Source: a virus
Length of the DNA stretch: 29,232 bases
Direction: 5' to 3' (one strand)
IMG/VR virus record: IMGVR_UViG_3300042540_000238
Location: 1-29,232 of that record
The position numbers were made by a program, and so were the translations under genes. Shown here piece after piece: positions 167-23,420 of this stretch (position 1 is its first letter; each line of letters opens with the position of its first letter). The notes beneath the pieces are model-generated. The model saw only the letters and a list, made by a program, of their open reading frames with translations. It did no database searches and was not told where the DNA came from.

Positions 167-241
167 GCTTCATTCGTCTATTGGCTAGGACACTCGCCTC
201 TCAAGCGGGAAAGAGGAGATCGATACTCCTATGAAGCACCA
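167..241 (+). tRNA. tRNA-Glu (anticodon CTC)
   Basis: Full cloverleaf. The acceptor GCTTCAT/ATGAAGC pairs perfectly, with A73 and an encoded CCA. The anticodon stem is CTCGC/GCGGG around loop CTCTCAA, giving anticodon CTC, which reads GAG. The T stem is AGGAG/CTCCT with the atypical loop ATCGATA, which the His and Ile tRNAs of this array share. It is the first recognisable tRNA of the array and lies 5 bases before tRNA-Phe, so the two are probably cut from one transcript. Confidence 0.93.
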
Positions 242-246
242 TTTAT

Positions 247-322
247 GTGTCCCTGGTGTAGGTGATCCGCACGTCGGCTTGAAGTACCGAAGGACTTAGT
301 TTGATTCTAAGGGGACGCACCA
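247..322 (+). tRNA. tRNA-Phe (anticodon GAA)
   Basis: The acceptor GTGTCCC/GGGACGC has one G-U pair and is followed by A73 and CCA. The D stem is GTGT/GCAC. The anticodon stem TCGGC/ACCGA has one C-A mismatch next to the loop TTGAAGT, giving GAA. The T arm is CTTAG/CTAAG around TTTGATT. One base separates it from tRNA-Leu. The identity is clear, but the mismatch and the four-base variable loop make it slightly irregular. Confidence 0.88.
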
Positions 323-323
323 T

Positions 324-401
324 GGGCGCATGGACAAATAGGTAAAGTCAGTCGGCTCAAACCCGTAAGTTTTCTCGGTTCGAATCCGAGTGCGCCTACC
401 A
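324..401 (+). tRNA. tRNA-Leu (anticodon CAA), irregular anticodon stem
   Basis: The acceptor GGGCGCA/TGCGCCT carries A73 and CCA. The D arm is GAC/GTC, with a long AAATAGGTAAA loop. The T arm is CTCGG/CCGAG around a standard TTCGAAT loop. The most natural anticodon loop is CTCAAAC, giving CAA (codon TTG). However, only three anticodon-stem pairs (CGG/CCG) are good; the outer two are mismatched. The long class II variable arm expected of a leucine tRNA is almost absent. The gene is clear as a tRNA, but the isotype is less certain. Confidence 0.75.
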
Positions 402-405
402 ATTT

Positions 406-479
406 GCTGGGGTAGTGTAATGGAAGCACCCGAGTTTGTGGAACTCGGAGCCTAGGATCGATACCTAGTCCCAGTACCA
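406..479 (+). tRNA. tRNA-His (anticodon GTG), alphaproteobacterial type
   Basis: The acceptor is GCTGGGG/TCCCAGT with G1-U72 and G7-U66 wobbles, discriminator A73 and an encoded CCA. The anticodon stem CGAGT/ACTCG encloses TTGTGGA, giving GTG. The T arm is CTAGG/CCTAG. Most bacterial tRNA-His carry an extra G at -1 opposite C73. This gene cannot be read that way without breaking the CCA end. A73 with U72 and no G-1 is the form known from a group of alphaproteobacteria, which fits a host in that class. Confidence 0.93.
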
Positions 480-482
480 TTC

Positions 483-557
483 GCCGCAATAGCACAGAGG
501 TAGTGCATTCCCATGGTAAGGGAAAGGTCGTAGGTTCAATTCCTACTTGCGGCACCA
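483..557 (+). tRNA. tRNA-Thr (anticodon GGT)
   Basis: A regular cloverleaf. The acceptor GCCGCAA/TTGCGGC is perfect, with A73 and CCA. The D stem is GCAC/GTGC. The anticodon stem TTCCC/GGGAA surrounds ATGGTAA, giving GGT (codon ACC). The T arm is GTAGG/CCTAC around TTCAATT. G1-C72 and C2-G71 agree with threonine identity. Confidence 0.92.
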
Positions 558-562
558 GTTAC

Positions 563-636
563 GCCGGTTTAGTATAATGGCATTACAGTGGTTTCGTAGT
601 CCTCTGATAGCGGTTCGATTCCGTTAACCGGCACCA
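563..636 (+). tRNA. tRNA-Thr (anticodon CGT), weak anticodon stem
   Basis: The acceptor GCCGGTT/AACCGGC is perfect, with A73 and CCA. The T arm is AGCGG/CCGTT around TTCGATT. Numbering from the D arm puts the anticodon loop at TTCGTAG, giving CGT with A37. The stem GTGGT/TCCTC then has two U-U mismatches. A one-base shift would read TCG (Arg), but it puts U at position 37, which is unusual. The acceptor pairs match threonine. This gene ends four bases before the promoter of the phosphatase gene. Confidence 0.8.
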
Positions 637-640
637 TTAC

Positions 641-669
641 TTGACATTCCTTTTCGAATGTGATAGGAT
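641..669 (+). promoter_or_regulatory. Promoter of the HAD phosphatase gene, with -35/RBS inverted repeat
   Basis: TTGACA (641-646), a 17-base spacer and TAGGAT (664-669) form a sigma70-type promoter. The C before it matches the alphaproteobacterial CTTGAC preference. Transcription should start near 676. The ten bases ATTCCTTTTC (646-655) are the exact reverse complement of GAAAAGGAAT (687-696), which holds the Shine-Dalgarno and the first two bases of the ATG. The promoter's own RNA lacks the first arm. tRNA-array read-through RNA would contain both arms. Confidence 0.8.
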
Positions 670-694
670 TAGACATAATGTGAAAGGAAAAGGA

Positions 695-1159
695 ATGAAT
701 AAGGTTTGGATTTTTGATATTGACGGCACTCTTGCTGATAACGAACATCGTATGCACCATCTTGATAATGGTAAAAAGGAATGGGATGCGTTCTTTTCAA
801 AGCAGCATTTGGATGAGCCTTATCAGCCTGTAATCGATGTGTTACACGCTTTGGCTAATGATCGTCCGGGTGATAAGGTGATTATCGTTACTGCCCGTGA
901 TGAGCGTTTTCGTGAGGATACTTTAGAATGGGTCAATAAGCATATCCCGTGGATGTCCCACGATGATATGTATATGCGTCCTTTCGGCTTTCGTGGTAAT
1001 GATGACCTTTTGAAGGTTGCGATTATCAAGAATTGGCTTGCTGCTAACCCTGGTTATACTGTTGGTGCAATGTTTGATGATCGTCACCGTATCATCGATG
1101 CCTGTCGTGCCGAAGGCTGGTATACTTTCGAGTGTAACCAGTCTCGTAAGGAGTTTTGA
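695..1159 (+). CDS. HAD-family polynucleotide 3'-phosphatase-like protein
   Basis: A 154-residue protein resembling the isolated phosphatase domain of T4 polynucleotide kinase/3'-phosphatase. HAD motif I is DIDGT (D8, D10), motif II threonine is T66 in IIVTAR, K107 is a candidate for motif III and the FDDR acidic pair is D128/D129. The kinase domain of T4 PseT is absent. It may remove 3' phosphates from cleaved nucleic acid, for example damaged tRNA, since tRNA genes lie on both sides. The start at 695 is chosen because it follows GGAAAAGG at proper spacing and the HAD motif begins right after it; the frame is open upstream to 641, inside the promoter. The family is clear, but the substrate is inferred. 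Confidence 0.85.
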   Translation: MNKVWIFDIDGTLADNEHRMHHLDNGKKEWDAFFSKQHLDEPYQPVIDVLHALANDRPGDKVIIVTARDERFREDTLEWVNKHIPWMSHDDMYMRPFGFRGNDDLLKVAIIKNWLAANPGYTVGAMFDDRHRIIDACRAEGWYTFECNQSRKEF

Positions 1160-1160
1160 A

Positions 1161-1352
1161 ATGATTGACTTGACAAAAGAAGGTAAACAGTTTATAGTGT
1201 TTATCAAAGATGGTAGCAATACATACCAGACTTCTTTTAGAAACTGGAAAGATACAGAAAGTTTCATTGCTACTTGTAGAGGAGTTTCAAAGATTGTGTC
1301 GGTGGAGTCCTATGAGATTCCACTGACAGGTTTAAAAGTTGCTGTCCCTTAG
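1161..1352 (+). CDS. Small hypothetical protein overlapping tRNA-Ile
   Basis: Encodes 63 residues, starting one base after the phosphatase stop with AAGGAG upstream. A longer frame starting at 1017 lies inside the phosphatase gene and is less likely. I recognise no family; the product is mixed alpha/beta in character, with no signal peptide. Its last ten bases, including the TAG stop, are the 5' end of tRNA-Ile, so translation to the end and maturation of that tRNA compete for the same RNA. A promoter-like sequence lies inside its first codons. Confidence 0.65.
   Translation: MIDLTKEGKQFIVFIKDGSNTYQTSFRNWKDTESFIATCRGVSKIVSVESYEIPLTGLKVAVP
1170..1198 (+). promoter_or_regulatory. Possible internal promoter for the second tRNA group
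   Basis: TTGACA (1170-1175), a 17-base spacer and TATAGT (1193-1198) match the other promoters of the window closely, again as CTTGACA. The site lies inside the 5' end of a small ORF, about 145 bases before tRNA-Ile. It would supply Ile, Tyr and Gln tRNAs without translating the ORF. Its position within coding sequence leaves room for coincidence. Confidence 0.5.
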
Positions 1353-1416
1353 CTCAAAGGTAGAGCAATCGCTTGATAAGCGATAGACGATGGATCGATA
1401 CCATCAGGGACAACCA
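1343..1416 (+). tRNA. tRNA-Ile (anticodon GAT)
   Basis: The acceptor TGTCCCT/AGGGACA is perfect, with A73 and CCA. The D stem is GCTC/GAGC. The anticodon stem ATCGC/GCGAT encloses TTGATAA, giving GAT. The T arm is GATGG/CCATC with the ATCGATA loop seen in the Glu and His tRNAs. Its first ten bases overlap the end of the upstream small ORF. Confidence 0.94.
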
Positions 1417-1420
1417 ATAT

Positions 1421-1504
1421 GCCGAGACCGCCTGAGTGGACGGGCACCCGACTGTAAATCGGACGCTTATAGCACGGTAGGTTCGAACCCTACTCTCGGC
1501 ACCA
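1421..1504 (+). tRNA. tRNA-Tyr (anticodon GTA)
   Basis: A class II tRNA. The acceptor GCCGAGA/TCTCGGC carries A73 and CCA. The anticodon stem CCGA/TCGG encloses CTGTAAA, giving GTA. A long variable arm is present, and the T arm is GTAGG/CCTAC around TTCGAAC. Its GUN anticodon makes it a queuosine acceptor in bacteria, as is the phage tRNA-His. Confidence 0.95.
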
Positions 1505-1511
1505 TCTTTGT

Positions 1512-1586
1512 TCGGGGATAGTTTAATTGGTAGAACGGCAGATTTTGGTTCTGTCTATCAGGGTTCGAGTCCTTGTCCCCGATCCA
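1512..1586 (+). tRNA. tRNA-Gln (anticodon TTG), U73
   Basis: The acceptor TCGGGGA/TCCCCGA is followed by T73 and CCA. The anticodon stem GCAGA/TCTGT encloses TTTTGGT, giving TTG. The T loop is TTCGAGT. Bacterial tRNA-Gln usually has G73, so the U here is unusual; the fold is otherwise standard. Confidence 0.9.
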
Positions 1587-1624
1587 ATCTATATAATGGA
1601 GTGAATCCATAGTAAGAGATATTT

Positions 1625-3088
1625 ATGCACCATGCTTTGATCTTTAGTATTTGTGAAAACTTCAACAAAAGATTACCAGGCGGACATAGAATTGCCACCC
1701 ATCTGAGACAAGAAGGATGGGATGTTGAGGTCATTGACTGGGCCAACTTCTTTGAATTGGATGAACTAAAAGAAATATGTAGATCACGAATATCCAACAA
1801 AACTGTATTTGTTGGATTTAGTGCTTTTATGAGTTATTGGGATCCAAACTTAGAATTATTCTGTCAATGGGTTACAGAAAATTATCCTGATGTAACGATC
1901 ATTCTAGGTGGTCAAAGTTCACCAAGAATGAAAACGAATTATATTCATTATTATGTTCATGGATATGGTGAAAAGGCTATAACCGAATTGACAAAAAGCC
2001 TAATAGGCAATACACCAATTGAAGGTATTAAGTTTGATCCTATTTATGAAGATAAAAAAGTTATCAATGCAATTAAAGACTATCCTGCTTTTCCTCAAAA
2101 AGAAGTAAAAATCGTTTATCAAAACCGAGACTTTATCGACCAACGAGAATGGTTGACCATGGAATTTTCCCGTGGTTGCATCTTCAAATGTTTGTATTGT
2201 AACTACCCCATTTTGGGAGTAAAAGGTGATTATACTCGGAGTGCCGAAGATTTTTATGAGGAAATGTCAACCAACTATGATAATTGGGGTGTTTCAAATT
2301 ATTTTGTAGCAGATGAAACATTCAATGATTATACTGAAAAGGTTGTAAAGTATGCTGATGCGGCGGATAGATTATCTTTTAGACCCTTCTTTAGCGCATT
2401 TTTGAGAGGTGACTTATTAGCAATTAGACCTCAAGATTGGGAACCTATGGTTCGCCTAGGGATGGTTGCTCATTTCTATGGATTAGAAAGTCTGAATCCT
2501 GCGAGTGCTAAGACTATTGGAAAAAGTAGTAATATGGAAAAAATATTGAGTGGTATTCTGGATGCCAAACAATATTTCAAAACTCATGGTGATGGATATT
2601 ATCGTGGTCATATATCACTTATTGCCGGTCTCCCACACGAAACAGTAGAAACGTTGAATAGAACTTTCAATTGGCTTGAGGAAAATTGGAAAGGTGAATT
2701 TTATAGTATCAATCCTTTGGAAATTCCACTAGATCCGACAATGGACAGGTTATCTACCCTTAGTTTAGATTATAGCAAATGGGGATATCGACATATAACA
2801 AATTCAAAGGTAGAAAGAATTGGTATCGAACAAGTTGCTAAAAAAATGATGTGGGAAAATGATAACATGGACATTTTTACGGCACAAGATATATGCAATG
2901 ATATGAACTTTCACCTATACAATAGTGGCGAATATGGAGCGACTGGATTTAATTTACATTTTCTTTATCAAAGAAATCTATCAATCTTAGATTGTTTGAA
3001 ATCAAAAGTTGGGTTTCAAACACATATGGATGACTCAATTTTCTATGACCGATTACAAGATTATAAACACAAAAAACTAAGTCTATAA
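1625..3088 (+). CDS. B12-binding-type radical SAM protein
   Basis: A 487-residue protein. The N-terminal 130 residues look like the Rossmann-like B12-binding domain common to B12 radical SAM enzymes: a GGHR...LRQEGWDVEVIDW start, ILGGQSS near residue 93 and HGYGEKAITEL near 112. The radical SAM core follows, with C185, C189 and C192 in GCIFKCLYC binding the [4Fe-4S] cluster. Such enzymes cleave SAM to a 5'-deoxyadenosyl radical and often methylate or rearrange unactivated carbon. The substrate is unknown. The gene is AT-rich, uses many ATA, AGA and AAT codons unlike the structural genes, and sits between two tRNA-Gln genes, ending three bases before the second. The neighbouring unknown gene at 3183 has similar composition and may be a partner. 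No clear Shine-Dalgarno is visible. Confidence 0.88.
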   Translation: MHHALIFSICENFNKRLPGGHRIATHLRQEGWDVEVIDWANFFELDELKEICRSRISNKTVFVGFSAFMSYWDPNLELFCQWVTENYPDVTIILGGQSSPRMKTNYIHYYVHGYGEKAITELTKSLIGNTPIEGIKFDPIYEDKKVINAIKDYPAFPQKEVKIVYQNRDFIDQREWLTMEFSRGCIFKCLYCNYPILGVKGDYTRSAEDFYEEMSTNYDNWGVSNYFVADETFNDYTEKVVKYADAADRLSFRPFFSAFLRGDLLAIRPQDWEPMVRLGMVAHFYGLESLNPASAKTIGKSSNMEKILSGILDAKQYFKTHGDGYYRGHISLIAGLPHETVETLNRTFNWLEENWKGEFYSINPLEIPLDPTMDRLSTLSLDYSKWGYRHITNSKVERIGIEQVAKKMMWENDNMDIFTAQDICNDMNFHLYNSGEYGATGFNLHFLYQRNLSILDCLKSKVGFQTHMDDSIFYDRLQDYKHKKLSL

Positions 3089-3091
3089 TAT

Positions 3092-3166
3092 TCAGGATTA
3101 GTTTAACTGGTAAAACCCCGGACTCTGACTCCGGTATTCGTGGTTCGAATCCATGATCCTGAACCA
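3092..3166 (+). tRNA. tRNA-Gln (anticodon CTG)
   Basis: The acceptor TCAGGAT/ATCCTGA carries A73 and CCA. The anticodon stem CCGGA/TCCGG encloses CTCTGAC, giving CTG. The T arm is CGTGG/CCATG around TTCGAAT. It stands apart from the main array, wedged between two AT-rich genes. With the TTG gene it covers both glutamine codons. A73 departs from the usual G73. Confidence 0.92.
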
Positions 3167-17854: not shown

Positions 17855-19876
17855 ATGAAAAAGATTGTATTCACATTTGGCCGTTATAATCCGCCAACCA
17901 CAGGCCATGCAGAACTAATTACATATGCGGTAAAGTTAGCACAGAGAAAAGGTGCCGAACACCGTATCTATACCTCCCAATCACATGATCCGTCCAAAAA
18001 TCCACTTTCACCACGAGAGAAAATGACGTTTCTTCGTCAGATATTCCCTGGTGTAAATTTTGTGGATGATCCAAAGATGAAAACCGCATTTGCTATTGCT
18101 AAGAAACTAGCAGATGAAGGTTATGAAGATGTTACATTTGTTGTCGGTGACGACCGTGTTCAAGAGTTTAGAACATCACTTACTAAGTATGTAAAACCAA
18201 GAACCGCCAAAGATTTCAATCCAAAGATTCATTATCCATTCAAACATTTTGAGGTCGTGTCATCAGGTGCCCGTAAGAAGGGAATTTCTGGTACCGATCT
18301 TCGTGCAGCCGTTCGCAAGGGTGACTTTGCCACATTTGCCAAGGCATCTGCCGCCAAAGATAAGACCCTAGCACGAAAGATATTCACCGCCACTCGTGCC
18401 TTTCTAAAAGAAGATACCAGTGGTATGACAAGAAAAGAATTTCATGACAAGTTGATGTCATTCGTTGACTTTACTTGTGCCCATCTTGGTATCGATGAAA
18501 GACCAAAATTTCAATACATGGGATCAGATGAAAGTGGAGATAAGAATCCAGTAAATCAACCATCATTTGCTTCTTATTCACCTGGTGAAAAATTGGTTAG
18601 AGTTGCAACTAAGAACCGTCATCCGATGGATATCTTCCGTTCAGTAGCACATGAGTTGGTTCATCATAAGCAGAACCTTGATGGTCGTCTTGGTAAAGAT
18701 ATCAAGAAAGAAGGTGCCACCGGTTCTAAGATTGAAAACGAGGCCAACGCAGATGCCGGTAAGGTAATGCGTTATTTTGGTAGTTTGAATCCAAGTTATT
18801 TCGATATGCAGTATGTGACCGAAAAGGCCATCATTCTTGCTGGAACACCAGGTTCTGGTAAAGATAAGATTCTAAAAGAGGCAATTCTACCATGTGGATT
18901 TACAGAGGTAAATGCTGACGAATTTCATAAGATTACATTAGAAGGTAATGTAGTCATCAATGGTTCATTCGATTATGATAAAGCAAGAGGTATCAAGGAG
19001 TCACTTGATGCCAGAGGTTATGAAACTATTATGGTATTTGTCAATACCAGCAACGAGGTATCAAAACTAAGAAACGAGGCTCGTGCTGGAAAAGGCCGTG
19101 TCATTGCAGAGAATGTCCGCTTTGGTAAGTGGAAGTCTGCACAAGACGCACTAAACAAATACGACCAGTTATTTGAAAAGGTCATTGAAGTCAAGAATGA
19201 CTTAGACCTAAACCAATCCGAAAAAGTTATTCAGGAAACATACCAAAAACTAATTGACTCGGTAACATCCGAGATTGATGAATTTGTTACAACTGATAAT
19301 GATCGTAAATTCCAGGCTATGTTGGAGGGATATACTGACTTCTCTCCAAACAATAGAAAGGTTTTGGTTGGTGGTGCAGGTAACTGGGGAACCCAGAAAC
19401 TAACAGATAGATATGCACAAGACACCCCAGGTCAAGAACCTGGTCCACCCAAACCTATGAGAGTATTAGATTTGAAACAGAAAACAGTAAGAAGCCCATC
19501 TGCGGCACCTATTGGTGCTGACAGAATAGGCGATGAAGCAGGCCTTCCAAAAGGACCTGGATTCGGTGATAATCAAGCAATTGATTTAACCGGTCTTGAT
19601 AGACAGATTAGCAGACAAAGACTAGATCGTTGGATGCAGAGTGAAGAAACCAAAAAGCGTTTCAAGGCACGTTATGGTTCTCTTTCAGAACAAAAGATGA
19701 AAGAGACTGCCGAAAAGTTGGTGAGAATGGAGAGTTTAGACGATCCATACTCAGGAACTATGTCATCGGTACCTGCAACCACTGGAAATGATGATGTTCG
19801 ACAAAATGCTACAGCAGCAGAATTTGAAAAGAAATCATTATTTGGATCCAGAAGAAAAAAGAAATATACTAAATAA
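17855..19876 (+). CDS. Fusion: cytidylyltransferase, HExxH and P-loop kinase domains
   Basis: A 673-residue protein with three recognisable parts. Residues 1-165 are a nucleotidylyltransferase: FGRYNPPTTGH (the HxGH site, here TTGH), VVGDD at 97-101 and SGTDLR at 145-150. Residues about 195-320 contain HELVH (266-270) with a downstream ENEAN (294-298), a gluzincin-like zinc peptidase pattern. From 325, LAGTPGSGKD (Walker A, 328-337) begins a kinase or zeta-toxin-like domain. The C-terminal 200 residues look disordered and basic. Cytidylyltransferase proteins starting like this are frequent in T4-like cyanophages; the triple combination is unusual. Substrates are unknown. Late expression is suggested by the upstream CTAAATA. 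Confidence 0.72.
   Translation: MKKIVFTFGRYNPPTTGHAELITYAVKLAQRKGAEHRIYTSQSHDPSKNPLSPREKMTFLRQIFPGVNFVDDPKMKTAFAIAKKLADEGYEDVTFVVGDDRVQEFRTSLTKYVKPRTAKDFNPKIHYPFKHFEVVSSGARKKGISGTDLRAAVRKGDFATFAKASAAKDKTLARKIFTATRAFLKEDTSGMTRKEFHDKLMSFVDFTCAHLGIDERPKFQYMGSDESGDKNPVNQPSFASYSPGEKLVRVATKNRHPMDIFRSVAHELVHHKQNLDGRLGKDIKKEGATGSKIENEANADAGKVMRYFGSLNPSYFDMQYVTEKAIILAGTPGSGKDKILKEAILPCGFTEVNADEFHKITLEGNVVINGSFDYDKARGIKESLDARGYETIMVFVNTSNEVSKLRNEARAGKGRVIAENVRFGKWKSAQDALNKYDQLFEKVIEVKNDLDLNQSEKVIQETYQKLIDSVTSEIDEFVTTDNDRKFQAMLEGYTDFSPNNRKVLVGGAGNWGTQKLTDRYAQDTPGQEPGPPKPMRVLDLKQKTVRSPSAAPIGADRIGDEAGLPKGPGFGDNQAIDLTGLDRQISRQRLDRWMQSEETKKRFKARYGSLSEQKMKETAEKLVRMESLDDPYSGTMSSVPATTGNDDVRQNATAAEFEKKSLFGSRRKKKYTK
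19869..19875 (+). promoter_or_regulatory. Late-promoter-like CTAAATA
   Basis: CTAAATA overlaps the stop of the fusion gene, 49 bases before ATG 19918, in a 41-base gap that also holds the AAGGAAAA ribosome site. It is the third copy of the heptamer in front of a likely virion gene. Confidence 0.42.
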
Positions 19877-19917: not shown

Positions 19918-21066
19918 ATGTTTGGAAACAACCCATTTCTAACCAAGAAGGACCCTCTAGTTCAAGCGGTCATGGAAGCAAGAAAAGATGGCGACATGCG
20001 CCGTGAAGCCGAGGCCCTTGTCAACGAGGAGTTTGGTGTATATTCTCGCAAGGCAGTTGTTAGAGAGCAACTAGCAGCATATGATGCCAGACTAGAAGAA
20101 GCCTATAAGTGCATGAAAGAAGGTAATAAAGAGAATAAAGAAAAGAAGAAAGAGCATGAAGAAAAGACTGGCATGGAACACATCAAAAAGATGGGCGGAT
20201 TCCCAGGTCAGTCACCAAAGAGAACTGCTCGTGAACTAACAAAAGAAGGCAATGATGGTAATCTTGCTAACAACTATCCTCCATATGACAAAGTTACCCG
20301 TGGTGACGTTGTTGCTGGTCGTCTCGGTAAAGACCAGATGGGTGGCAAGAAAAAGATGGGCGAAGGCCTTGACGTTGTAAAAAGAGATCCATCAGTTCAA
20401 GGTTCAGGCGACGTTACTAAGTCTGCTCCTAAGGAAGATCCATCAACACCTAAGTCCTATCCAGGTGCAGCATCTTCACTAACACCAGGCAATCCAACCA
20501 CACAACGTATGCAGAATGTGGTCAAGGAAGATGAACAGATTGATGAAGTTTCAAAGAAGGCTGCTATCTCTGCTTATAGAGAAAAAGAAGCACAAGAAAG
20601 AGACACCAGCAAACTACATGGTCTAATCAAGAGAAAGTTTGGTAAAAAGACTGCACATAATGCCGAACGTGCTGGCGCTCAATCATCTGTAGGTCTAGTT
20701 CGCCGTGGTGAAGATCGTGGTAAAGAAGATTCCATTGCCCGTGATCGTCGCCATCCAACAGACAGAATGACAAAATCTGGTAAGGTTCATAAGCAAGATA
20801 CTGCCACACTAAAAGGCAATATCAAGCGTCGTCTTGGTTCACACACCAAGCCAGGTCATCTACCAGAAGAAACAGTAAATGAAGCCGCATATTCTGCCAA
20901 GGCTGCCCGTGCTGGTAAAGACATTGGTAAGCCAGGCAAATCATTCAAGATGATTGCTAAGAAGGCCGGCGAACGTTATGGTTCAGAGGAACGTGGTAAG
21001 AAGGTAGCAGGTGCTATCCTTGCCAAGATCCGTGCCAAGCACATGAAGGAAGACCAGGGTTTCTAG
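19918..21066 (+). CDS. Capsid-associated type protein with EQIDE motif
   Basis: A 382-residue, very charged, largely disordered protein. The N-terminal 80 residues are helical (VQAVMEARKDGDMRREAEAL). EDEQIDEVSKKAAISAYR (about 202-220) is a short motif repeated in the protein at 23436. A compact basic C-terminal segment (about 325-375: KAARAGKDIGKPGKSF...ERYGSEERGKKVAGAI) is common at the end of T4-like phage head-associated proteins. A scaffold or internal capsid role is inferred. The stop TAG follows directly on a slippery GGGTTTC, so part of the ribosomes may continue into the next gene. Confidence 0.68.
   Translation: MFGNNPFLTKKDPLVQAVMEARKDGDMRREAEALVNEEFGVYSRKAVVREQLAAYDARLEEAYKCMKEGNKENKEKKKEHEEKTGMEHIKKMGGFPGQSPKRTARELTKEGNDGNLANNYPPYDKVTRGDVVAGRLGKDQMGGKKKMGEGLDVVKRDPSVQGSGDVTKSAPKEDPSTPKSYPGAASSLTPGNPTTQRMQNVVKEDEQIDEVSKKAAISAYREKEAQERDTSKLHGLIKRKFGKKTAHNAERAGAQSSVGLVRRGEDRGKEDSIARDRRHPTDRMTKSGKVHKQDTATLKGNIKRRLGSHTKPGHLPEETVNEAAYSAKAARAGKDIGKPGKSFKMIAKKAGERYGSEERGKKVAGAILAKIRAKHMKEDQGF
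21057..21066 (+). other. Candidate -1 programmed frameshift site
   Basis: In the frame of the upstream gene the bases read G GGT TTC TAG, an exact X XXY YYZ slippery heptamer right before a stop. After a -1 shift, reading continues FLGAPGTGKSVNELA and enters the gene at 21105 in frame without any stop. That gene has no visible Shine-Dalgarno. A short CCG-GGAA-CGG hairpin (21072-21081) follows eight bases later; it is weak. The fusion would be 898 residues. Confidence 0.5.
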
Positions 21067-21104
21067 GCGCACCGGGAACGGGTAAGTCGGTAAACGAACT
21101 AGCA

Positions 21105-22613
21105 ATGTCGATGCCACCTAACGTCGAAATGCCTGTTCCAGGTGTTCGTCGTCAGGCAAGCGCATCGCAGCAAAGACTACAGGGTAATACTTATCGTGCA
21201 GGTCAGAGTTTTGCGTCACAAGGCACAACTGTAAAATCAGGTGGTGCTAGAATGGGTTCCAGTTTCGGTACAATGAAACCAACCACAACTGACGTAAAGA
21301 GAAATATCTCTAACCGATTCAACCCAAGTTTTAGTCAGCAAGCTACTGGATCAATGAAACCATCCTCAGTTGGTGGTTCTACATCATTCTCACAGGGTGG
21401 TAGTCAAGTAGCACAGAAGATGGCAAAGTCATCACCAAGTCAAATGGTGACCAAAATGAGTGGCGCCGGCCGTGCCGCTATGGCCACACCTAAGGCTACT
21501 GTGGCGGCCGCCAGTTCTGTTGCAAAAGGTATAGCAGCAAAGGTGGCAGGTCGTGCCCTTGGTGTTGCTGGTCTTGCAGTTCCAGATTCCACTAAGACCG
21601 AACCAGGTAATCCTGTATTCCGTAAAACAGATACAGGCAAGACACAAGTTGCAGGTTATCGTTCATCAACTACACCAAGTGCATCTGTCAAGAACACACA
21701 AACTGGTATGGTTGGTTCTATGTCAAGACGTGGAGAACTAGCACCTTCTGTCAAGAATCAGGAACTACCTTCTAAGATTGCTCCTGTCCAGACAAAAGAA
21801 CCTGGTACAATGTCTGCTCCTGTTGCTAAACCAGCGGCAGCACCAAAGACAGAACCATCTTCTTTCAAGCAGGCCTTCTCACAGGCCCGTAAGGAAGCAG
21901 GATCAATGGGTGCTAAGTCAACTGGCCAATTCAAATGGACAAATCCAAAAACTGGTGAAACTGGTACATATCAGTCAAACATTCGAGGCAAAGGAACTGC
22001 AAAGGCACCAGAAGAAAAGTTTGTGCCTATGTCACAGCAAAAGGTGACAAGTGTTGGTAAGTCATCAACACCTGCTACTGCTTCTTCTGCAACTAAGGCA
22101 GACACAGCACCAAAAAATGTTTCGACTGATCGAGCATCATATGGTCCTGGTAGACAAGGTCTAACAAGAGTCGCCGGCCTCACTACAGCTGGCACTTCTT
22201 CTGGATCTCTTTCACCAACACCTATCAAACAACAAGATACTGGCATGAAGGCAGCGGAAAAACCTGACACATTTAGTAGTGTTAGACTTAATCCAGAAAG
22301 AACACCTACTACCACTACAAGAGTGCCAACAGGTGTTCCGGATATTGCAGGATCAGCAGCTAAACCTAAAAATGCCACAAGTGACACTGGTGGGTTTATT
22401 TCACAGAATAAACCACCTGAAACCGCACCTGCTCCGGCACCAGAGGTGAAGGCTTCTGTTACTGCGGCACCTGAACCATCTTATTCTGCTGATAGTCCTG
22501 CCGGCAAGGCATGGGCCAACAGAGGTAAGTTTGGTGGTACTCAGCAAGAAGAAAAGAAGATGGTTGCTGAAAGTTATGTTTCAGTGGGTGATAATAAATA
22601 TAGGATCGTATAA
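21105..22613 (+). CDS. Long disordered Ser/Thr/Pro/Ala-rich protein
   Basis: Encodes 502 residues of low complexity. Ser, Thr, Pro, Ala, Gly and Lys dominate throughout, with no globular domain except perhaps the last 25 residues (MVAESYVSVGDNKYRIV). An alanine-rich stretch (about 118-155) could form a helix. ATG 21105 and ATG 21111 are both possible, but neither has a ribosome site; the frame is open upstream through a GAPGTGKS sequence to 21063 and beyond. This supports production as the -1 frameshift extension of the upstream gene. Virion or scaffold location is guessed from its neighbours. Confidence 0.65.
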   Translation: MSMPPNVEMPVPGVRRQASASQQRLQGNTYRAGQSFASQGTTVKSGGARMGSSFGTMKPTTTDVKRNISNRFNPSFSQQATGSMKPSSVGGSTSFSQGGSQVAQKMAKSSPSQMVTKMSGAGRAAMATPKATVAAASSVAKGIAAKVAGRALGVAGLAVPDSTKTEPGNPVFRKTDTGKTQVAGYRSSTTPSASVKNTQTGMVGSMSRRGELAPSVKNQELPSKIAPVQTKEPGTMSAPVAKPAAAPKTEPSSFKQAFSQARKEAGSMGAKSTGQFKWTNPKTGETGTYQSNIRGKGTAKAPEEKFVPMSQQKVTSVGKSSTPATASSATKADTAPKNVSTDRASYGPGRQGLTRVAGLTTAGTSSGSLSPTPIKQQDTGMKAAEKPDTFSSVRLNPERTPTTTTRVPTGVPDIAGSAAKPKNATSDTGGFISQNKPPETAPAPAPEVKASVTAAPEPSYSADSPAGKAWANRGKFGGTQQEEKKMVAESYVSVGDNKYRIV

Positions 22614-22786
22614 TGAAAAAGAAACCCGACAGCAAGAAGATTGCCAAGGAAGATACAAAGGTGGCCTTGCAAAAGGCCGCCGATAAAAAACTAATAAACC
22701 CAGGAAAGACCCAGACTGGTCAACCTGCGGATCCTGTAGTTCAGAATCCCGAGGTCCCAGGCGTAGTAGGTCAAACTTACAACTAA
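22613..22786 (+). CDS. Small basic hypothetical protein
   Basis: Encodes 57 residues. Lys-rich N-terminal half (MKKKPDSKKIAKED) and a Pro/Val/Gln-rich second half. TAATG overlaps the stop of the disordered protein and AGGA lies upstream. No family recognised. It lies 13 bases before the Ig-like decoration protein and may be a small head accessory. Confidence 0.6.
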   Translation: MKKKPDSKKIAKEDTKVALQKAADKKLINPGKTQTGQPADPVVQNPEVPGVVGQTYN

Positions 22787-22799
22787 AAGGAAAAGAACA

Positions 22800-23420
22800 A
22801 TGCCACTATGGGGTAATAAAGACAATGCTGCCAATTCAGACATTGCAGCCGTAATCCAGTATAACAGAGCATCAACCTCTGCTAACCAGTCTGCTCTTTA
22901 TAAGAACGTAACTGCTAATGCTTTCATCACAAATGAAATCGTTGGCCAGTTCGCCGTTGATACAAATGAAGCACAGGTCAACAAAGACATTCCACACTCT
23001 GGTTGGGTTCTTCGTAAGGAAGGCACCGGTCTCCGTGCTGGTCGTATTACCTACGAAGTTCTTGTTGCTACAGGTTCAATCGCCACTGACGGTACAGACG
23101 ATACACAGTTCCCAGATTATCGTCTAACAGTTACCACACAGCCAACAAGTAATACAAAATCGACAATTGGTAACCTAACCTTCACCGTTGCTGCTACATC
23201 AACACCATCAGGTGCTTCTATCAAGTATTACTGGCAGAAATACAATGGTTCTTCATGGGCCAATGTTGCAAACACAGGTGGTCAGTATTTCAACAATACA
23301 TCACCAACATTTACTGCAAACAACCAGACCGCAAACGGCAACGTATTCCGTGCCCTAGTAACCGCAACTGGTGCAAACAGCGTAACATCCGGTTCAGCAA
23401 CAATTCTTTACGTTGTATAA
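22800..23420 (+). CDS. Capsid decoration-like protein with Ig-like domain
   Basis: A 206-residue protein. MPLWGNKDNAANSD at the N-terminus matches a start often seen in structural proteins of T4-like cyanophages. Residues about 1-105 are a small virion domain, and 110-206 an Ig-like beta-sandwich (LTVTTQPTS..., YYWQKYNGSSWANVANTGG, FRALVTATGANSVTS). Ig-like domains decorate T4-type capsids (Hoc-like) or fibres and bind surfaces weakly. AAAAGGAAAAG precedes the ATG. The gene is richer in Thr/Asn/Ser codons, typical of surface proteins. Confidence 0.8.
   Translation: MPLWGNKDNAANSDIAAVIQYNRASTSANQSALYKNVTANAFITNEIVGQFAVDTNEAQVNKDIPHSGWVLRKEGTGLRAGRITYEVLVATGSIATDGTDDTQFPDYRLTVTTQPTSNTKSTIGNLTFTVAATSTPSGASIKYYWQKYNGSSWANVANTGGQYFNNTSPTFTANNQTANGNVFRALVTATGANSVTSGSATILYVV

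Follow-up and report, generated by a model that had tools for sequence, protein, structure and literature searches.

A candidate programmed -1 ribosomal frameshift gene in T4-like phages

Organization of the locus

The stretch of DNA analysed here (the window) comprises 29,232 nucleotides, positions 1 to 29,232 of IMG/VR record IMGVR_UViG_3300042540_000238. The phage is uncultured and T4-like, with a portal (phrog_213), sheath (phrog_23), tube (phrog_45) and DNA polymerase, and the order of genes at the locus (cytidyltransferase, the gene described here, a small gene and a T4 GC0934 structural protein) is shared with Synechococcus phage QB2. The parts of the locus are as follows.

17855–19876, + strand: upstream neighbour and synteny marker, with a cytidyltransferase-like N-terminal domain, a zeta-toxin/AAA_33-like P-loop segment and a charged tail
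19918–21066, + strand: ORF1, 0 frame, 382 aa, C-terminus ...KIRAKHMKEDQGF, stop TAG
21046–21052, + strand: SD-like AAGGAAG, located from the alignment and ending 7 nt 5' of the slip tetramer
21057–21063, + strand: heptamer G_GGU_UUC, of which only the last four bases (U_UUC) are kept in relatives
21060–21066, + strand: conserved slip core UUUC-UAG (UUUY UAR in 12 of 12 contexts)
21063–22613, + strand: ORF2, -1 frame, 516 codons from the post-slip codon CTA to the stop
21069–21083, + strand: 3' hairpin, 5 nt past the slip codon, with covariation in 15 sequences
21081–21091, + strand: GGTAAGTCGGT, -1-frame codons GGT AAG TCG GTN, invariant in 14 of 15 contexts
21105–21107, + strand: ATG once read as opening a gene of its own, with a weak, non-conserved SD
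22613–22786, + strand: small downstream ORF, starting within a TAATG overlap with the ORF2 stop
22800–23420, + strand: downstream neighbour, a phrog_613 head protein whose position matches the T4 GC0934 structural protein of Synechococcus phage QB2

The heptamer GGGTTTC (21057–21063) lies directly 5' of the TAG (21064–21066) that ends ORF1. The -1 frame is open from 20 codons upstream of the slip site, runs on through 21105 and stops at 22611–22613, giving a predicted slip product of 382 + 516 = 898 aa. A previous sequence-only reading of the window had described this heptamer abutting the stop, a -1 frame open into the ORF at 21105 and an 898-residue fusion, all of which we reproduced.

A second record (164,392 b) carries the identical junction, with 20 mismatches to the window over 29,232 bases, which makes an isolated sequencing or assembly error unlikely, and the architecture recurs in eleven further distinct junction sequences. 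Allowing up to 3 mismatches, we found the core motif GCACNGGNAACNGGTAAGTCGGT once in the window against an expectation of 0.00, indicating that the junction motif is more than a chance occurrence.

ORF1 consists of a helical N-terminal domain common to the whole family, followed by variable lysine-rich modules, whereas ORF2 is of low complexity and ends in ESYVSVGDNKYRIV, as single-ORF relatives do. AlphaFold modelled ORF1 residues 1–97 as two long helices (pLDDT 71). The gene product had no Pfam or PHROG match, and a fold search with the predicted N-terminal domain returned no useful match. It is synteny, the position beside the T4 GC0934-type structural gene, that suggests a virion or assembly role such as the earlier description of both ORFs as virion-type implies.

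A tRNA cluster was also present, with 26 genes in the 164-kb genome (L077:4713-10989) and 10 in the window (167–3166).

Shift-type, in-frame and element-free relatives

Homologues were sought with ORF1, ORF2, DNA patterns and an N-terminal profile, and junction sequences were taken from IMG/VR. This analysis revealed three kinds of homologue. The shift type comprised 12 distinct junction sequences, the window's included, of the form ...AARGAAGA-NNNNNN-TTTY-TAR-nCGCAC-stem-GGTAAGTCGGT; all 12 showed a UUY codon, an adjoining UAR stop, a 5-nt spacer and a hairpin with a GNAA loop, followed by GGUAAGUCGGU. These contexts share descent of one cassette and do not represent 12 independent origins. 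The in-frame type (three sequences: the L012/L052 group, L054 and L107) carried the same element with one additional base and encoded a single ORF of about 660–770 residues. Relatives of the third kind lacked the element; their single ORFs, which include L022, L025, L106, L108, L110, L111, L117, L121, L122 and L124, mostly end in ESVQVGxNKYRIV. The -1 ORF reached a VGxxKYRIV C-terminus in 10 of the 12 shift contexts, the exceptions being L053/L133, in which ORF2 runs on into the next gene, and L119, whose contig stops before the ORF2 stop.

In L133 (L053), the KYRIV terminus is lost through an in-frame fusion of ORF2 with the next small gene (...GTLGALEHRYGSSKKL...), the counterpart of the window's ORF at 22613–22786. 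ORF1 of L119 (from 2390) has an in-frame TAG at codon 130 where L022 has Tyr (NYSG*KGGGTYDP versus DYSGYKGGGTYDP); a sequencing error, a broken copy and recoding are alternative explanations. The junction element had no match in bacterial genomes and no DNA-level match among phage isolates. Two sequences retrieved by pattern, L063 and L064, encode unrelated P-loop kinases and were rejected as relatives.

Reading frame across the junction

In all 12 shift contexts, the -1 frame was open, for 151–516 codons or, in two truncated contigs, up to where the contig ends, while reading through the stop gave 8–17 open codons and the +1 frame closed within 6. Only the -1 frame leads anywhere in these contexts, which argues for a -1 FRAMESHIFTING reading. 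Residues 1–898 of the fusion predicted for the window aligned with residues 1–771 of the single ORF of L054 (E = 7e-109), and the junction peptides of shift-type and in-frame relatives aligned without gaps (KEDQSF-LSAQETGKSV in L009, KEDSSF-NAAQETGKSV in L012). This gap-free alignment fits a -1 slip after Phe.

Other recoding could in principle produce the same fusion, but we regard bypass by a +2 hop, stop readthrough and polymerase slippage as having scarcely any probability even when taken together. Bypass would draw some support from the stop that adjoins the putative take-off codon, as in T4 gene 60, where a stop codon lies immediately 3' of the take-off codon; a +2 hop would, however, leave the product one residue short of the alignment with in-frame relatives. 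Readthrough is opposed by a frame that shuts within 8–17 codons, and polymerase slippage by a T run of just 3–5 bases, which is too short for usual transcriptional slippage.

The sequence-only reading had taken 21105 as the start of a second gene lacking a Shine-Dalgarno sequence. A weak one is present (duplex energy -3.0 kcal/mol), and 26% of 119 genes in the near-identical 164-kb genome have one as weak or weaker (median -5.2), so its weakness is a poor argument by itself. Two ordinary adjacent genes, the second translated from its own ATG by reinitiation or weak initiation, would accord with the window's ATG, 38 bases past the stop, with the presence in several contexts of an ATG or GTG within 13–19 codons and with fair SD energies in a few (L009, -6.6; L008, -6.1 kcal/mol). 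A conserved start with a ribosome-binding site was nevertheless not found: neither the position of the start codons nor the SD was conserved across shift contexts. In L023/L045, moreover, 130 codons pass without a start codon, the earliest possible -1-frame start being codon 131 after the slip, and the stretch of -1 frame from slip site to ATG is open in all contexts and in register with the in-frame relatives. We consider the two-gene arrangement very unlikely. With single-ORF relatives in existence and starts unconserved, the claim of a gene at 21105 is not supported; to judge from the sequence comparisons, the ORF there most probably forms the C-terminal half of a single gene, and its ATG probably encodes an internal Met.

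Between L008 and L061, the -1 ORF showed a dN of 0.29 and a dS of 0.72 over 375 codons, indicating that ORF2 evolves as a protein. The junction shows together three of the features by which -1 frameshifting is recognized: a conserved slip motif, an ORF open in the -1 frame only and under protein-level selection, and an RNA structure 3' of the slip. From these comparisons, we hold it highly probable that the locus carries a single gene in which programmed -1 ribosomal frameshifting yields a short and a long product.

Putative slip signal

The bases preceding the stop were TCT_TTY in nine of the 12 shift contexts, GGT_TTY in two (the window and L119) and GAT_TTT in one (L057). G_GGU_UUY is thus confined to the window and L119, and the tandem heptamer proposed as the signal was not borne out. 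Whether relatives keep the heptamer had been put forward as a check on the frameshift itself; most lack it yet keep both ORFs, which counts against the heptamer, but the frameshift survives its loss because register and tetramer are kept. The shared core of the putative signal is a U_UUY tetramer with an adjoining UAR (UAA or UAG). An SD-like element upstream, which overlaps the codons of a conserved KED, reads AAGGAAG in nine contexts and AAAGAAG in three, and its copy at 21046–21052 is a possible 5' stimulator of slipping.

The sites of L119 (GGGTTTTTAG) and L057 (GGATTTTTAG) match the luteovirus and dianthovirus sites GGGUUUU or GGAUUUU followed by UAG. Our contexts differ from those in involving bacterial ribosomes and unrelated genes, and in having TCTTTY in most relatives. 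In the nine TCT_TTY contexts, the codon preceding the slip codon re-pairs poorly. Among tetramers placed before a pseudoknot stimulator in E. coli, U_UU.C and U_UU.U shift second and third most readily; without a stimulator, tetramers hardly shift in that species, and R_RR.U_UU.Y heptamers were singled out as notably shifty (PMC4066793).

A phage-encoded tRNA-Phe was rejected as the cause of slipping, since the shift-type genome G002, with about five tRNA genes, has none for Phe and the in-frame genome G003 has one.

Downstream hairpin and GGTAAGTCGGT

A hairpin begins 5 nt past the slip codon and follows the scheme G.U, C-G, bulged A, C-G, N-N', G-C, closed by a GNAA loop. In the window, these pairs are G69.U83, C70-G82, C72-G81, C73-G80 and G74-C79, with A71 bulged and the loop at 75–78. 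The hairpin is short (5 bp and a bulge), and it was 100% paired across 15 sequences, with no unpaired cell and covariation at 2 pairs. The N-N' pair was A-U in eight sequences, C-G in four and U-A in three; in L119, the loop-closing G-C is replaced by U-A, changing T to K in the protein and leaving pairing intact. The covariation score was reached by 0 of 500 shuffles, a value to be read with the limit that shared descent sets on the number of independent changes.

Of the two bases that change at N-N', one occupies a second codon position and its partner a third; in the window, L038 and L042, the C-G pair comes with the codon ACG, which makes up 6.5% of the Thr codons in the genome. These codon positions and the rare ACG make protein constraint a poor explanation of the covariation. 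The hairpin may stimulate slipping. The three in-frame relatives have it as well as the shift types, and Rfam matched nothing at the junction. GGTAAGTCGGT, which contains the rare Ser codon TCG (8.5% of the genome's Ser codons), may owe its near-invariance to an RNA function, to a protein function (TGKSV) or to recombination-driven identity.

Two other candidates were rejected. An upstream hairpin (AGGAAGA/UCUUUCU, from RNAalifold) loses two of its pairs in both the window and L057 and is incompatible with a ribosome on the site. The Walker-A-like GAPGTGKS that follows the slip is not conserved (NAQATGKS and DALETGKS in relatives) and is probably a coincidence.

Proposed mechanism

Under the frameshift model, the TAG at 21064 would end translation for most ribosomes, giving the 382-aa protein. 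Some, holding tRNA-Phe on UUC beside the stop, would move back one base so that UUC is exchanged for UUU; the small GNAA hairpin beginning 5 nt further on would help, as might the SD-like AAGGAAG upstream. Slipped ribosomes would then read CUA GGC GCA... and complete the 898-aa fusion, whose long C-terminal module ends in KYRIV. Slipping by ribosomes, its efficiency and the ribosomal site involved belong to the inferred part of this model. Both products would presumably serve in the virion or in its assembly, with a ratio that matters.

Evolution of the element

A tree of the N-terminal domain was built from 91 columns and, given so short an alignment, serves only as a guide. On this tree, the shift label required 9 changes, at least 4 of these changes being forced by well-supported branches, and was no more clustered than shuffled labels. 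L010 and L018 pair the same ORF2 with different ORF1s. Together with the scatter on the tree, this suggests that the element travels among protein modules.

Part of this pattern would also be expected if an ordinary frameshift mutation or an assembly error had disrupted a gene that relatives keep intact, with the conserved DNA acting as a recombination hotspot: some relatives have a single ORF, the DNA of both types is almost unvarying at GGTAAGTCGGT and the element is scattered over the N-terminal tree. That reading is nonetheless hard to credit, because the exact register is kept in twelve sequences despite TAA/TAG and TTC/TTT exchanges and differing flanks, the hairpin covaries and the -1 half is under purifying selection.

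Taking the programmed frameshift as the preferred reading, we tentatively raise a further idea, which we think somewhat less probable than its opposite: the slip site, hairpin and GGTAAGTCGGT may form a portable frameshift cassette at which recombination swaps N- and C-terminal modules, the cassette setting the short-to-long ratio of a variable virion protein whatever modules flank it.

A module with the consensus AAYSAKAARAGKDIGKPGKxFxxIAKKAGExYGSEERGKKVAGAILAKIRAKHMKED (20880–21060 in the window) stands just before the junction in both single-ORF and shift-type relatives, and it may mark a swap point.

The -1 frameshift joining the two ORFs, as first proposed for the window, is supported at sequence level by register, tetramer and in-frame relatives; the covarying hairpin, the conserved adjacency of the stop, in-frame homologues and shuffling of the cassette had no place in that first picture.

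Comparison with known systems

Tail assembly chaperones use -1 shifts widely, and frameshifted capsid or tail proteins are known from T7, T3, Lactobacillus phage A2 and Listeria phages A118, A500 and PSA (PMC5009743), precedents that count against the suggestion that use outside tail chaperones would be new. As in T7 10A/10B, T3, A2 and A118/A500, a -1 shift shortly before the first frame ends would add a C-terminal extension to the product of a virion gene, here a putative one. The T7 gene 10 slip site has G_GU as X_XX, and its shift depends on an element far away, within the terminator (PMC5009743). Here, by contrast, the gene is another one, the extension measures 151–516 residues, a GNAA hairpin lies 5 nt past the slip codon and the stop always adjoins. 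Lambda gpG/gpGT likewise represents one tailed-phage gene with a short and a long product via a -1 shift (PMC5009743). In our case, neither product resembles a known family and the gene lies outside the tail gene cluster; the genes of the locus and PHROG/Pfam comparison revealed neither a tail-cluster location nor chaperone homology. The "shifty stop" of prfB, with a +1 slip at CUU UGA, is similar in that a tRNA slips on a pyrimidine-rich codon directly 5' of a stop (PMC10885494), but the direction here is -1 and the stops are solely UAA or UAG.

QB2 (Kyanoviridae) resembles the window in synteny (XCH00380-XCH00384) and in a protein sharing the module GNLANNYPPYDKVTRGDVxAGxxGKDQMGGKKK; unlike the window, it has no frameshift element, and its next gene begins at a TGATG overlap. 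A literature search, with most subscription journals outside its scope, turned up neither this gene nor any case of frameshifting in this phage group. As far as that literature shows, the kind of event is known, while the gene family, host phage group and arrangement are new.

The locus adds to T4-like phages a candidate frameshift gene that is well supported by sequence comparison. Routine ORF calling divides it into two genes, and both halves would then be mis-annotated. The in-frame, frameshifted and cassette-free versions in close relatives offer a natural comparison for why a two-length product is kept, and the element is compact (tetramer, adjoining stop, short hairpin) and easily tested.

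tmRNA genes

Permuted tmRNA genes with tags ending in ALAA were identified by ARAGORN in three phage genomes (L074:16549-16926, minus strand; L156:6540-6900; L168:15077-15454), one of them nearly identical to the window. The L156 tmRNA matched Rfam RF04321 (alpha_tmRNA) at 95 bits, which may hint at the host.
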